Below are positions 2,759 to 7,081 of a stretch of 64,000 bases of DNA, in pieces; the first letter of the stretch is position 1; each line of letters begins with the position of its first letter. The DNA is taken from positions 2,356,001 through 2,420,000 of the forward strand of contig NC_011726.1 of NCBI RefSeq assembly GCF_000021805.1, written 5' to 3'. Source of the DNA: Rippkaea orientalis PCC 8801. Its GTDB lineage: Bacteria > Cyanobacteriota > Cyanobacteriia > Cyanobacteriales > Microcystaceae. A program made the position numbers and the translations under genes. The notes beneath the pieces are model-generated. The model was not told the origin of the DNA. It worked only from the letters and a program-made list of their open reading frames with translations, and made no database searches.

Positions 2759-3088
2759 ATGACCATTATTGTTAAGCATAGCACCACTGGGAATTATTAT
2801 TTGTTATTAGGAACAGGAGGGGGAGTCGATCAAAATTTAATCTCCCCCCGTTTTCTCAAGAATTTGTTACCGATCATGGTGACAGTCTGCGATCGCAATG
2901 GTAATATTTTTGGACTTCCTGCCTCTGAATTGGTAGTAACCACTCTCGATGGACAACCCCCCTCAGAATTATTACCTGAACCAGAAGTCATTCCTCCACC
3001 CCCTCCTTTTGAGCCTGAAGTCACTCAAACAACTCAACAGTCAGAAGTAGAAGTATTTGAAGATGATGACGATGAGGAATGGATTTAA
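2759..3088 (+). CDS. Small cyanobacterial protein with proline-rich, acidic tail
   Basis: 109 residues, not recognised. The N-terminal ~65 residues look folded (alternating hydrophobic residues, a GTGGG loop at about 19-23, and a VTVCDRNGNIFG strand-turn-strand). A proline stretch (IPPPPPFEPE) follows at about 78-87, and the protein ends in a strongly acidic tail EDDDDEE. There is no signal peptide or membrane segment, so it is probably cytoplasmic. It starts 23 bases after txlA and could be co-transcribed. A HIP1 octamer lies inside the gene near 2889, so it looks native. The opposite-strand open frame at 2830-3024 is its shadow. Confidence 0.7.
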   Translation: MTIIVKHSTTGNYYLLLGTGGGVDQNLISPRFLKNLLPIMVTVCDRNGNIFGLPASELVVTTLDGQPPSELLPEPEVIPPPPPFEPEVTQTTQQSEVEVFEDDDDEEWI

Positions 3089-3506
3089 CAGTTAACAGTC
3101 ATCTGTAATCAGTTATCGGTTAAAAAACTGTTGGGTATATTCAACGTTTGAGTTATTTTTATTTAGTATTTCCCTAATATATCTTATTGGTATTTTCTTG
3201 ATCTATTTATGCAAATAGACAGTTTTAAAATTGTCATATTTTGATTTGAACTTTTGAGTATAACTCATTAACAATCAAGCATTTTTTCTACTTTTTTCGA
3301 TCTTTTTACCTTTATTTCTATCTAACAAGATAAGATTAATAGCTAAATTCCATGAATTAATAAATTTCTTGCCTTTTTAATGGGACTGACATCTAAAAAA
3401 GAAAGAATTATAGTTAAAGAGACAAGCCAAGGAACCGAAAAAAACAAAAAATTATCGGGTGAACTTGGATCAAGAACTTATCCCTAGTGCGGAGTGTACA
3501 ACTACT
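3089..3506. other. AT-rich intergenic region, no gene seen
   Basis: About 420 bases of very AT-rich sequence between the proline-rich gene and the first small exported gene. I see no plausible coding frame, tRNA or strong hairpin. Short direct repeats of AACAGTTAACAGT type occur near 3089-3120. The part closest to 3507 presumably holds the promoter of the exported cluster, but no clear -35/-10 pair stands out. Confidence 0.5.
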
Positions 3507-3821
3507 ATGAAAAACCTGCTTTTTGGTCTATTAACCTTAACCACCTTTGGTACCTTAATTACTCCTGCGTTTGCTGATCAAGTTATTATGCAAGAATCAA
3601 GCAACTACATTTACCAAGAAGGAACTGGAAACAGTGGTCAACAGACAACCAGACAAATCCATCGTATGCAGAAAAAAGGAAGTAGCGAAACCACTACTCC
3701 CAACTATGGAGCAGTTCAAACCAGTGTCCAAGAAGGTATGCAAGTTGGTGATGATCAAGACTTTAAGCAAACCACAATTCAGAAAAATGAAATCAGAAGA
3801 GGTGTTAGAAATCGTAACTAA
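3507..3821 (+). CDS. Small exported protein 1 (Gln/Asn/Thr-rich)
   Basis: 104 residues, unknown family. A clear Sec signal peptide (Lys after Met, a leucine-rich core, cleavage after AFA before DQV) precedes a mature part of about 80 residues rich in Gln, Thr, Asn and Gly. It holds a run of the kind YIYQEGTGNSGQQTTRQ and ends in a basic tail RRGVRNRN. The frame extends upstream to 3459, but the signal peptide fixes the start at 3507. It has its own downstream terminator. The Q...G..N...Q spacing is loosely like curli-type repeats, though not enough to call it a curlin. It is the first of five consecutive small exported proteins. Confidence 0.75.
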   Translation: MKNLLFGLLTLTTFGTLITPAFADQVIMQESSNYIYQEGTGNSGQQTTRQIHRMQKKGSSETTTPNYGAVQTSVQEGMQVGDDQDFKQTTIQKNEIRRGVRNRN

Positions 3822-3858
3822 TTCCTGATTCTTGACCTAACTGTTCTTACCTAATAGG

Positions 3859-3921
3859 GGACGGGTTGGATAATTAAACTTATAGTCTGACCTCCTATCC
3901 GACTCCCAATCCGTCCTTTTT
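3859..3921 (+). terminator. Probable rho-independent terminator
   Basis: GGACGGGTTGG at 3859-3869 pairs with CCAATCCGTCC at 3906-3916 (one G-U pair) across a ~36-base loop that contains a further GATA/TATC pairing. The second arm runs straight into TTTTTAT. It ends the transcript of the first exported gene and separates it from the second. Confidence 0.7.
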
Positions 3922-4005
3922 ATCTTCTTGGGGTTTGATGCAGTTTGGCCGCCAGAAAAGAGCAAATTTCTGCGGCTAACTTATCCAAGATTGAGGAATC
4001 AACCC

Positions 4006-4326
4006 ATGAACAAGAAAGCATTCACCTTACTGTTAGGAACAACCCTCACTTTACTGACTGTCACCAATGTTTATGGAAAGGAAACGGAAATAAAAGCAGG
4101 AGGAGTTAGTGTTTATAGAAGTCCTAACCGTGACCTCTATATTAATACTGGACGCATGGAGATCAATGTTCCTAAAAATCGATCTCGTATTGAGCGTAAT
4201 TCTGCTGTTAACCGTTCTCCTCGTCGCTGTTCAGGAAATAACGTTGTTCGTCAATACAGTAGACAAGTGAATCACTCTGGCCGCACCAGTAGCCAAAGTT
4301 CAGTGTCTCACTATTCCTGTCCCTAA
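4006..4326 (+). CDS. Small exported protein 2 (basic, two cysteines)
   Basis: 106 residues, unknown family. The signal peptide (NKK then a Leu/Thr-rich core, cleavage after VYG) is followed by a short beta-like segment (EIKAGGVSVYRSPNRDLYI) and a basic Ser/Asn/Arg-rich tail. Two cysteines, one in RRCSGNN and one at the C-terminus YSCP, could form a disulfide. The fragment CSGN is shared with the next protein. A GAGG ribosome site lies about 10 bases before the ATG; the open frame upstream to 3928 lacks one. A strong hairpin follows the gene. Confidence 0.72.
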   Translation: MNKKAFTLLLGTTLTLLTVTNVYGKETEIKAGGVSVYRSPNRDLYINTGRMEINVPKNRSRIERNSAVNRSPRRCSGNNVVRQYSRQVNHSGRTSSQSSVSHYSCP

Positions 4327-4365
4327 ATTGATGCTTAATTAGCAAAACTTTAGCGTTAATCGTTT

Positions 4366-4396
4366 GATCAAAAGCTCAATTTTTGAGCTTTTGATC
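4366..4396. terminator. Strong 13-bp hairpin between exported genes 2 and 3
   Basis: GATCAAAAGCTCA (4366-4378) and TGAGCTTTTGATC (4384-4396) form a perfect stem with a 5-base AATTT loop. No T-run follows on the plus strand, so it may be an mRNA end-stabiliser or a leaky terminator rather than a canonical terminator. It sits 37 bases before the next start codon. Confidence 0.6.
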
Positions 4397-4433
4397 TCCC
4401 CAACTCTAGCTCATATTTAGAGGAGTGTTATTC

Positions 4434-4817
4434 ATGAGAAAAACAACGTTTTTTTTGGGATTATTGACTTTATTAGTTGGCCTTGAGTCTTCTTTAAATA
4501 AGGGGGTTCAAGCTCAATGTATCCAAGGAGATGTCTCGATACAATATAACATCAGTGGTTCACAAAAACCCACAACGCGCACCAACGATGTAGTGATGGA
4601 AAAAAATCCAAAATGTTCAGGAAATTCCAGTATTACCACCGGAGTTCAGGGAAATAGAGGAGGGAAAACTCCTGTTGAACAACATCGTCGAGTTCATCAA
4701 GTTCAGACCGGAGGTCAAGGAAACCCTACAGGAATTGATGGCTCAACGGTTCAAATTCGTTCTAATGTTCAAGTAGATGTTGATAATCCGACGGATAGAT
4801 TTGAGTACAAACGTTGA
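4434..4817 (+). CDS. Small exported protein 3 (Gly/Gln/Val-rich)
   Basis: 127 residues, unknown family. The signal peptide (RK, then a Leu-rich core) is cleaved near VQA before QCIQGD. The mature part has a first cysteine close to the new N-terminus and a second in KCSGNSS, then a glycine/glutamine-rich stretch (GVQGNRGG, QTGGQGNPTG) and a final beta-like STVQIRSNVQVDVD. The CSGN fragment matches the second protein, so the two may be distant relatives. AGAGGAG at 4419-4425 is an excellent ribosome site for ATG 4434; the in-frame GTG at 4425 overlaps it and is unlikely. It leads a tight three-gene run (gaps of 17 and 5 bases). Confidence 0.75.
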   Translation: MRKTTFFLGLLTLLVGLESSLNKGVQAQCIQGDVSIQYNISGSQKPTTRTNDVVMEKNPKCSGNSSITTGVQGNRGGKTPVEQHRRVHQVQTGGQGNPTGIDGSTVQIRSNVQVDVDNPTDRFEYKR

Positions 4818-4834
4818 TAAAGTGAGGTGACATC

Positions 4835-5263
4835 ATGTCCTTTAAACATCTCGTTTTTGCTGCTTTTTCAACAGTGATTTTAGCTACTACTTTTTCCGAT
4901 AGTCCTTTAGGAAAAAATGCTTTTGCTCAAACTCAATATCAAAGTCAATCAACTACAATTGATATTAGTTCAAGTGAGTTAAAAGACAGCTATTGGCTAA
5001 ATATTTATAGTTCCGATAATGCTCGGATTCAGGGAGAAGTCAAGCTAGACGGCAAAGTTATTCAGTCTCTCAATAGTGCCAGTACTACGATTAATATTGC
5101 TCCCTATCTGAACCAAGGACAAAATGAAGTAATTATTAGTGGTAATTATTCTCCGACTAATGCTTCAGTTACCGTAGAATTAAACAGTAAAACGGATAAA
5201 GTTACCCAACAAACAGGAGGTAATGGATTGATCAATCAAATTCTAATCATTGAGGTGCAATAG
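4835..5263 (+). CDS. Small exported protein 4 (beta-sandwich-like)
   Basis: 142 residues, unknown family. A signal peptide with cleavage after AFA before QTQY. The mature ~110 residues read as alternating beta strands and turns (YWLNIYSSDNARIQG, EVKLDGKVIQSL, NEVIISGNYSPTNASVTVEL), the style of a small immunoglobulin-like or adhesin-like domain. There are no cysteines. A GAGGTGA ribosome site precedes the ATG. It lies 17 bases after protein 3 and 5 bases before protein 5, so the three are almost certainly one transcript. I infer a surface or periplasmic structural role. Confidence 0.78.
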   Translation: MSFKHLVFAAFSTVILATTFSDSPLGKNAFAQTQYQSQSTTIDISSSELKDSYWLNIYSSDNARIQGEVKLDGKVIQSLNSASTTINIAPYLNQGQNEVIISGNYSPTNASVTVELNSKTDKVTQQTGGNGLINQILIIEVQ

Positions 5264-5268
5264 GTAAT

Positions 5269-5565
5269 ATGCTCAAAAAAATCAGCCAAGTTGGATTAAT
5301 AACTATTGCTTTATTTGGAACAATTGGAGTACCTAGCTTTGCTCAAAATACAAGCAGTCAAACGGCTGGTATGGAAGCAACTGTTTCAGGTAGTAACAAT
5401 CAAGTTAACCAAACTATTAACCAGACTATTATTAATCATCCGGGGGTAGGCTCGGTTAATAGAAATACTCCAAAAGTAACCACTAACAATCGTGGTGGTG
5501 TTAACCCCCGACGGATTGAAAATCGAGATAATCGTCGCCATAATCGTTATAATGATGATGATTAA
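5269..5565 (+). CDS. Small exported protein 5 (Asn-rich, basic tail)
   Basis: 98 residues, unknown family. The signal peptide is cleaved after SFA before QNTSS. The mature part contains an Asn/Gln-rich segment (SGSNNQVNQTINQTIIN), a short linker, then an Arg/Asn-rich tail ending in DDD. The NQ repeats could support stacking or amyloid-like assembly, but this is inference. It is the last gene of the exported run and is followed by a long inverted repeat before the convergent pyrFE gene. Confidence 0.72.
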   Translation: MLKKISQVGLITIALFGTIGVPSFAQNTSSQTAGMEATVSGSNNQVNQTINQTIINHPGVGSVNRNTPKVTTNNRGGVNPRRIENRDNRRHNRYNDDD

Positions 5566-5588
5566 TCTAAGCTAAGAACCATTTAAAC

Positions 5589-5630
5589 ACAGTTATCAGT
5601 GATCGGTATTTACTGTTGCCTGATAACTGT
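5589..5630. terminator. Inverted repeat between convergent genes
   Basis: ACAGTTATCAG (5589-5599) and CTGATAACTGT (5620-5630) form an 11-bp perfect stem with a 20-base loop. It lies between the end of the exported cluster and the end of pyrFE, and could end transcription from both sides. Confidence 0.55.
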
Positions 5631-5641
5631 TTATTGTCGTC

Positions 5642-7081
5642 TTAAGATAAACGCTGATATTGCTCCTGATTAATGCGTCCTGCTGCATATAAAGTCTCTG
5701 TAATTTCAGAAATTTTTAACACAGAATAGGCTGTATAACCATAACTTTCAATCTTATCTTTAACATTTTCTTCATGGTCAATAAAAACCACAATATCTTT
5801 GACAATTAATCCAGAAGATTGTAATTTTTCCGCTCCTTCTATTACACTTTTACCCGTAATTAAAATATCATCAATCAAAACAACTTTTTCTCCGGGGTTA
5901 AACTCCCCTTCAATTAAGCGACGAGTTCCATGAGCTTTAATTTCTTTACGAGGATAAATCATCGGATGATGTAACATCAAAGATAACCCTGTTGCTGTCG
6001 GTAAAGAACCATAGGGAATACCCGCAATGCGATCAAATTCTAATTGGTCAAGAATATCAGCATAAGCTCTTAATACTTGATGGAAAATCTGAGGATTAGA
6101 AATAATTTGCCTCAGATCAATATAATAGGAAAAAGTTGCTCCCGATGCTTGCACATATTCCCCAAATAGCAAACAACCAATATCATATAATTGCAAAATC
6201 AAATCTTGATAGGGATGGGGATTAAATAAACAGACATCAGAAGTCCACAATTGACAACTATTCTGTTGACTCATAATTTGATTTCGAGTTCGATTAATCT
6301 CTTGATTTAGAGTTTTAACCTGTTCTTTTAAATGGTCTGCCTTTAAAAAATCTTGAGGAATCGGAATCAATAACCCATCCCCATTGCTATTTAAACCTGC
6401 CGTTAAAATGGTTTCAAGTTGATTTTTTTGTGACCAAATACTTCGCATTAAAATAAATCTTTCAGGTGCAATTGAGCGAATTTTTTTAATCACCTCTACA
6501 TCAGTCGTTCCGACTTCTAATAAAACTTGTTCTATTGTTCCCCACATTTTCGCTTCTTTAACCACCTGTAGATAAAAAGGCGTTTCAGGAGTCGGGTATT
6601 CCTGTAAAGCGATCGCCCCGGGATTAGAAGAATGACACAGCACAAAAACACCCTTATCAGGATAAACTAAAAAAGGAGCAACCTGATCATGGCCACTATA
6701 GGGACTAACCGTGACTGCATCCACTTTCCACTGTTCAAAAATTGCCTTAGCAAAAATCGTACTGGTATTAAGATCCCCGTGTTTTGCATCTAAAATAATC
6801 GGAATATCTGGGGGAATTTCTGCGATAATTTCAGACAGTAATTCTAACCCTAACGCTCCTAATACTTGGTAAAATCCCAAGGTGGGTTTATAGGCACAAA
6901 CTGATCCCATCGTCTCGCTAATAATCGATTTAAGCCAAGTTGACCACTGTTTTTTCAAAGAGTCTGGTGAGCAGTCGTTATAATGGTATTGGAGCATCAT
7001 TTCTGGATTAGGATCAAGTCCAACAACCAATAACGTTTCATGATAGGTTATGGCTTGGGTCAATTTCTCAAAAAAACTCAT
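5642..7081 (-). CDS. pyrFE: Bifunctional OMP decarboxylase / orotate phosphoribosyltransferase
   Basis: Catalyses the last two steps of UMP synthesis in one 479-residue chain. Residues 1 to ~275 are an orotidine-5'-phosphate decarboxylase: GLDPNP at 21-26, a conserved lysine in YKPTLGFYQ, and DAKHGD at 98-103 (the catalytic D-x-K-x-x-D signature). Residues ~290-479 are an orotate phosphoribosyltransferase with the PRPP loop IDDILITGKS at 403-412. The domain order, decarboxylase first, is the reverse of animal UMP synthase and is known from cyanobacteria. Active-site residues look intact in both halves. ATG start; divergent from ccsA. Confidence 0.95.
   Translation of the reverse strand: MSFFEKLTQAITYHETLLVVGLDPNPEMMLQYHYNDCSPDSLKKQWSTWLKSIISETMGSVCAYKPTLGFYQVLGALGLELLSEIIAEIPPDIPIILDAKHGDLNTSTIFAKAIFEQWKVDAVTVSPYSGHDQVAPFLVYPDKGVFVLCHSSNPGAIALQEYPTPETPFYLQVVKEAKMWGTIEQVLLEVGTTDVEVIKKIRSIAPERFILMRSIWSQKNQLETILTAGLNSNGDGLLIPIPQDFLKADHLKEQVKTLNQEINRTRNQIMSQQNSCQLWTSDVCLFNPHPYQDLILQLYDIGCLLFGEYVQASGATFSYYIDLRQIISNPQIFHQVLRAYADILDQLEFDRIAGIPYGSLPTATGLSLMLHHPMIYPRKEIKAHGTRRLIEGEFNPGEKVVLIDDILITGKSVIEGAEKLQSSGLIVKDIVVFIDHEENVKDKIESYGYTAYSVLKISEITETLYAAGRINQEQYQRLS

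Follow-up and report, generated by a model that had tools for sequence, protein, structure and literature searches.

In curlins, alternate residues on either side of the turn face inward. The minimal curlin repeat was defined by Dueholm et al. as X6QXGX2NX10, and many Alphaproteobacteria have curlin genes alone, with the rest of csg missing (PMC3521004). Little is known of the protein fibres in cyanobacterial sheaths and colonies, and EbfG is the one cyanobacterial amyloid operon that our literature search returned: EbfG1-4 of Synechococcus elongatus are small secreted proteins with a role in the matrix, encoded in a four-gene operon; three of the four form amyloid in C-DAG, and the amyloid hot-spot motif is A-[FI]-N-I-[GS] (PMC9981879). 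Here we describe a group of five genes in Rippkaea orientalis PCC 8801 for which we found no literature on such a system in cyanobacteria.

The window analysed, a stretch of 64,000 nucleotides, sits in the 4.68-Mb contig of a HIP1-rich cyanobacterial genome of 4.79 Mb. ORF calling placed five ATG-start reading frames (P1 to P5; 104, 106, 127, 142 and 98 aa) at 3507-5565, and these genes, with the features described within and between them, all lie on the + strand. By inspection of the translations, all five proteins begin with a signal peptide, in which a basic n-region is followed by a hydrophobic stretch, and AxA-type cleavage sites are present in P1 (AFA|D), P3 (VQA|Q), P4 (AFA|Q) and P5 (SFA|Q). 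The five consecutive small exported proteins of 98-142 residues reported in the initial annotation are real, and with dN/dS from 0.06 to 0.55 over all pairs measured, all five genes are under purifying selection. Their Q/N richness is likewise borne out, P1, P4 and P3 having the three highest Q+N fractions among the 58 window ORFs (0.16-0.18; median 0.11), and we measured the same close packing of the last three genes, with 17 bases between P3 and P4 and 5 between P4 and P5; the gaps behind P1 and P2 are longer and contain RNA hairpins. As had been anticipated, the proteins belong to no recognised family, with no match above cut-off in Pfam, NCBIfam, PHROGs or PDB sequences. The region lacks HIP1 sites from 2889 to 6609, which includes the interval 3100-5640 where none had been noticed, but at the genomic rate (2995 sites in 4.79 Mb) about 20% of 2.5-kb stretches have none, and the absence is not significant. 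Convergent with the cassette, at 5642-7081 of the window, is a PyrF-PyrE fusion gene that is not one of its members.

The five genes recur elsewhere as a unit. We sampled 50 genomes of the family and 386 across the phylum, and annotated 42 loci with profiles. Relatives of P4 occur in 18 of the 50 family genomes, and in their flanks P1, P2, P3 and P5 are arranged as in the window. Across the phylum, the profile of P3, the best-conserved marker of the cassette, matched 20 of 386 genomes, while P4 was matched in 15 and P1 in 14; these P1 and P4 matches adjoin P3 save in three genomes, one with P1 and P4 together and P3 not recognised (G153), and two with P4 without other cassette genes (G228 and G370). 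A curlin-like gene is found immediately upstream of P2 or P3 in 41 of the 42 loci, the exception being a plasmid cassette cut at its contig ends, P2 and P3 are direct neighbours in 35, and 15 keep the full order P1-P2-P3-P4-P5. The genes flanking the cassette vary from locus to locus, which argues that its members are held together by function and not by a conserved region. These results support the earlier suggestion that the five genes form one unit, and contradict the possibility, raised alongside it, of homologues scattered singly through genomes or belonging to unrelated known families. The cassette is present in about 5% of the sampled phylum genomes and its distribution is patchy even inside the genus, with carriers that include Aphanothece, Crocosphaera MAGs, Cyanothece BG0011, Chroococcus, Snowella, Hydrococcus, Hyella, Pleurocapsa and Waterburya. 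A phage origin was rejected, as no relative was found in viral contigs; a search of a plasmid collection gave no match either, and the flanks are rearranged in sister genomes, so that these offered no clean comparison with an empty site.

P1 (3507..3821; signal peptide 3507-3575), delimited by its ORF and family alignments, is an exported curlin-like repeat protein. With P5 it has in common a 22-residue unit, Qx3Qx3QxGx2Nx3Qx3Q, which P1 holds in two copies whose starts are 42 residues apart: unit 1 (Q29-Q50, 3591..3656) contains QEGTGN and is where the curlin profile discussed below matches, and unit 2 (Q71-Q92, 3717..3782) was delimited by alignment. The window copy of P1 carries substitutions; in the family alignment (A7), Q71, Q75, Q79, G81, Q88 and Q92 are invariant. 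In 23 P1 proteins we counted 34 exact units, against none in 200 shuffles, and the turn QxGx2N by itself, which is the published minimal curlin repeat, occurs 37 times in the same proteins where 2.2 would be expected by chance, so the Q/N-rich repeat already noticed is real. The residues Q-8, Q-4, Q0, N5, Q9 and Q13 of P1 have the same parity as the inward-facing positions of curlins, and it is from this pattern that P1 may be read as folding into curlin-type beta-arches; its AlphaFold model has a pLDDT of 50.8 and gives no confident fold. P5 (5269..5565; alignment A4) has one copy of the unit (Q31-Q52, core GSNNQVNQTINQ, 5359..5424 by alignment), with the third Q replaced by V or I, followed by a charged tail, and G41, N44, Q48 and Q52 are invariant in 15 sequences. 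Judged by their sequences, P1 and P5 are homologous (hhalign probability 97%, in an alignment that is partly signal peptide). A bacteriocin-like assignment of P5 by NCBIfam was rejected, given that it was obtained for only 1 of 15 members, scored 18.7 bits (E 0.0016) against a cut-off of 40 and spans residues 2-54, about half of which is signal peptide.

Compared with curli, the cassette is alike in having small Sec-exported subunits, possibly one major and one minor, that are homologous to each other, in units with QxGx2N and with Q/N in inward positions, and in an operon that includes a small beta-sandwich protein. It differs in that its units are longer Q ladders (Qx3Qx3Q...Qx3Q) and in that, whereas curli units of about 22 residues abut, those of P1 are two in number and 42 residues apart and that of P5 is single. 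It also has two extra Cys-containing proteins, P2 and P3, and neither a pore gene nor a match to the curlin family PF07012. With E. coli positive as control, PF07012 was matched in none of the 50 genomes of the family and in none of the 386 across the phylum. CsgG (PF03783) has no match in the R. orientalis genome, control genomes being positive, and it was found in 5 of the 18 cassette-bearing family genomes (one of them a fragment) against 18 of the 32 others, hence cassette and CsgG are not associated. In the test against PF07012, P1 and P5 matched no family at E up to 5. A profile of the K-12 CsgA/CsgB repeats ranked the window P1 fifth (E 0.011), over all shuffles; however, an unrelated VWA protein, a chance match, ranked third, and the reverse profile built from the P1 and P5 units found neither CsgA nor CsgB. 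Curlin homology by profile was thus not established, and the resemblance between P1 and curlin, as seen in sequence, is one of working principle. With EbfG, compared by motif and description, the likeness is that of a cyanobacterial operon of small exported proteins; the EbfG hot-spot motif is absent from the inspected translations of P1 to P5, and no QxGx2N unit has been described for EbfG.

P2 (4006..4326, delimited by ORF and alignment A5) and P3 (4434..4817, alignment A1) are exported proteins with two cysteines each, conserved in the P2 family (C75 and C105) and invariant in that of P3 (C29 and C61), and family searches found no known relatives for them. The CSGN previously reported as common to both is present, as RRCSGNNVV in P2 and KCSGNSSI in P3, but homology between the two on this basis was rejected (hhalign 1%). 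We regard them as probable disulfide-containing partners or co-components. P4 (4835..5263) is an exported protein whose domain at 4928-5260 is modelled by AlphaFold2 as a beta-sandwich with pLDDT 90.5 and pTM 0.83, and the earlier guess of such a fold is supported by this confident model.

The first gene of the cassette can be multiplied. Several loci have P1-like genes in 2-5 tandem copies, and in the distant loci L091, L095, L096, L097 and L098 up to five of them stand in a row ahead of P2 and P3. R. orientalis itself has a second, diverged cassette on its own plasmid (contig C1), with three P1 genes in a 369-bp tandem at one contig end and, following on from this tandem at the other, P2, P3, P4 and a P5 of 358 residues; a plasmid-type cassette is also carried by genome G048 (locus L046). 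In this long P5, the unit Gx2Nx3Qx3Q is present in four exact copies, and the C-terminus resembles a PEP-CTERM tail, with VPEPS followed by a hydrophobic stretch and a basic end. Multiplication of the first gene would be expected if it encodes the main structural subunit. Between P1 and P2 of the window, a stem-loop followed by UUUUU (3858..3917) folds with -22.5 kcal/mol (z -2.45), and a perfect 14-bp stem-loop lies between P2 and P3 (4366..4396; -20.4 kcal/mol, z -6.4). Structured RNA (z -2 or lower) is present in the gap from the last P1-like gene to P2 in 22 of 33 loci and in the P3-P4 gap in 4 of 21, which is suggestive of a structured RNA behind P1 across loci, with the reservation that z was calculated from mononucleotide shuffles that do not keep dinucleotides and that the loci are not independent. 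A simple terminator scan missed the 3858-3917 hairpin on account of its long and branched loop. With its U5 tract, this hairpin might terminate a fraction of the transcripts or shield the P1 mRNA at its 3′ end; in both cases P1 would become the most abundant product. A search for known RNA families at the locus found none.

Taken as a whole, these sequence and model data incline us, with moderate confidence, to the view that the five genes form a self-contained cassette, and that it encodes a curlin-like structure, a fibre or matrix, exported to the cell surface. Components of an extracellular fibre, matrix or surface structure had been proposed in the initial annotation, and this is still the best reading of the synteny, the exported Q/N-rich proteins, the curlin-like units and the amplification of P1; the single unit is observed, whereas the formation of fibres, their location and the secretion route are what we infer. 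P1 to P5 would reach the periplasm by the Sec signal peptides read from their sequences. We propose P1 as the major fibre subunit, an abundant building block whose two units would form beta-arches that turn at QxGx2N and have the Q/N ladder on the inside, the arches stacking into a cross-beta fibre as curlins do; the hairpin behind P1 and the tandem P1-like copies in relatives would fit, as correlative evidence, an excess production of P1. Given its homology to P1 and its charged tail, P5 is proposed as a minor, nucleating or anchoring subunit, and the long P5 relatives, which have four units and end in a PEP-CTERM-like tail, would fit an anchored form. P2 and P3 may be disulfide-stabilised partners, and P4, as an assembly factor or glycan anchor, may guard the subunits in the periplasm or link the structure to polysaccharide. 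Passage through the outer membrane would take place without CsgG in this organism. More tentatively, the cassette might encode a cyanobacterial functional amyloid, or a surface fibre, of a new class, one made of curlin-analogous Q-ladder repeats, with five genes, CsgG-free export and disulfide and beta-sandwich proteins of its own.

The main alternative, to which we give a clearly smaller but real share of belief, is a surface or sheath coat of non-amyloid nature, made of small proteins of the matrix or outer envelope that bind one another as well as polysaccharide, with P4 acting as a CBM-like sandwich and the Q/N repeats making protein-protein or glycan contacts without cross-beta fibres. 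The fold matches of P4 are all middling (Z up to 7.8) and include MmpS5, GH2 N-terminal domains, CBM60 and the basal pilin EbpB, many of them being GH2 N-terminal domains and CBM60 at Z 5-6.4; by sequence, 4 of 19 P4 members weakly match the GH2 sugar-binding domain PF02837 (best E 0.0021, below the Pfam cut-off), the window P4 not among them, and CBM-like Pfam domains are also weakly matched. The model and these matches suggest a sugar-binding-like sandwich, alike to GH2 N-terminal and CBM60 domains in the fold search and weakly in sequence. However, P4 is a free-standing exported protein that scores under the family thresholds, and Z below 8 and sub-threshold E-values are no evidence of membership. 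The carriers would also suit a coat, given that Aphanothece, Chroococcus, Hydrococcus, Hyella and Crocosphaera largely form sheaths or mucilage. Against it, the Q/N ladder of the repeat unit points inward and its turn carries a G, as in curlin, and the tandem multiplication of P1 is what one would look for in a structural subunit.

We consider it unlikely that the cassette is a true, highly diverged curli system, with P1 as CsgA-like, P5 as CsgB-like, P4 as CsgC/CsgH-like and an unrecognised pore. The minimal repeat QxGx2N is in common, two homologous subunits and a beta-sandwich protein in one operon recall csgBAC, and curlin genes without other csg have the alphaproteobacterial precedent cited above (PMC3521004), but this reading has to contend with the lack of a PF07012 match, of CsgG in the genome and of any significant profile match, and with P2 and P3, which have no csg counterpart. 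Neither CsgC nor CsgH is among the P4 fold matches listed, an absence that excludes nothing. Less likely still, and in our view improbable, are periplasmic or envelope stress proteins confined to the cell envelope and never at the surface: only Sec signals are visible, and neither the cassette nor its neighbouring genes encode a secretion pore, yet the Q/N-rich repeats, the amplification in copy number and the PEP-CTERM-like tails of long P5 proteins suggest surface structures. On the preferred reading of a fibrous or matrix structure, this cassette without a named family, found in Crocosphaera MAGs and in colonial and endolithic genera, would provide candidate genes for the structure of sheaths and aggregates. 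With P1 it could also be tested whether the curlin turn QxGx2N has more than one origin, and P1 bears on how such subunits exit a cell without CsgG.

Some further genes were observed around the plasmid and distant cassettes. Upstream of the plasmid P1 copies (L044:6400-6760) are short tandem repeats, each with a small-ORF start (ATGAAACTAAAATTG). Directly 3′ of the plasmid cassette (L045:2889-7720, contig C1) are genes for a caspase-domain protein, an ECF-like sigma factor and a DUF1822 protein, the last being the sole DUF1822 gene of this genome; caspase-sigma-DUF1822 neighbourhoods have been described as putative cell-death or immunity systems (PMC8195603). In L090:8401-14652 and the matching places of L092 and L094, a P1-like gene and P3 begin a longer row, followed by genes for an exported protein, a 470-residue protein, a DUF1822 protein and a CHAT-nSTAND1 protein, and in G048 (L090) the DUF1822 gene is again the only one of its genome. 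In most of 20 sampled DUF1822 loci (L178-L197), DUF1822 lies directly 3′ of a gene resembling the plasmid sigma factor, but none of the 20 has the cassette, and a general functional link between the cassette and DUF1822 modules was rejected. In distant cassettes, the gene of an exported protein of about 160-190 residues is found 3′ of P3 or P4, apparently in the place of P5 (L081:7226-7798, L085:4496-5005, L086:3028-3594, L087:6044-6529, L089:2366-2863, L093:6579-7079 and L098:9330-9854), and several of these proteins have a GxxN motif and a C-terminal coiled coil. Finally, four distant cassettes have a gene for an XRE-type HTH regulator upstream in opposite orientation (L091:11692-12027, L095:4903-5238, L096:4428-4787 and L098:4360-4719), which may regulate them or mark a shared ancestry.
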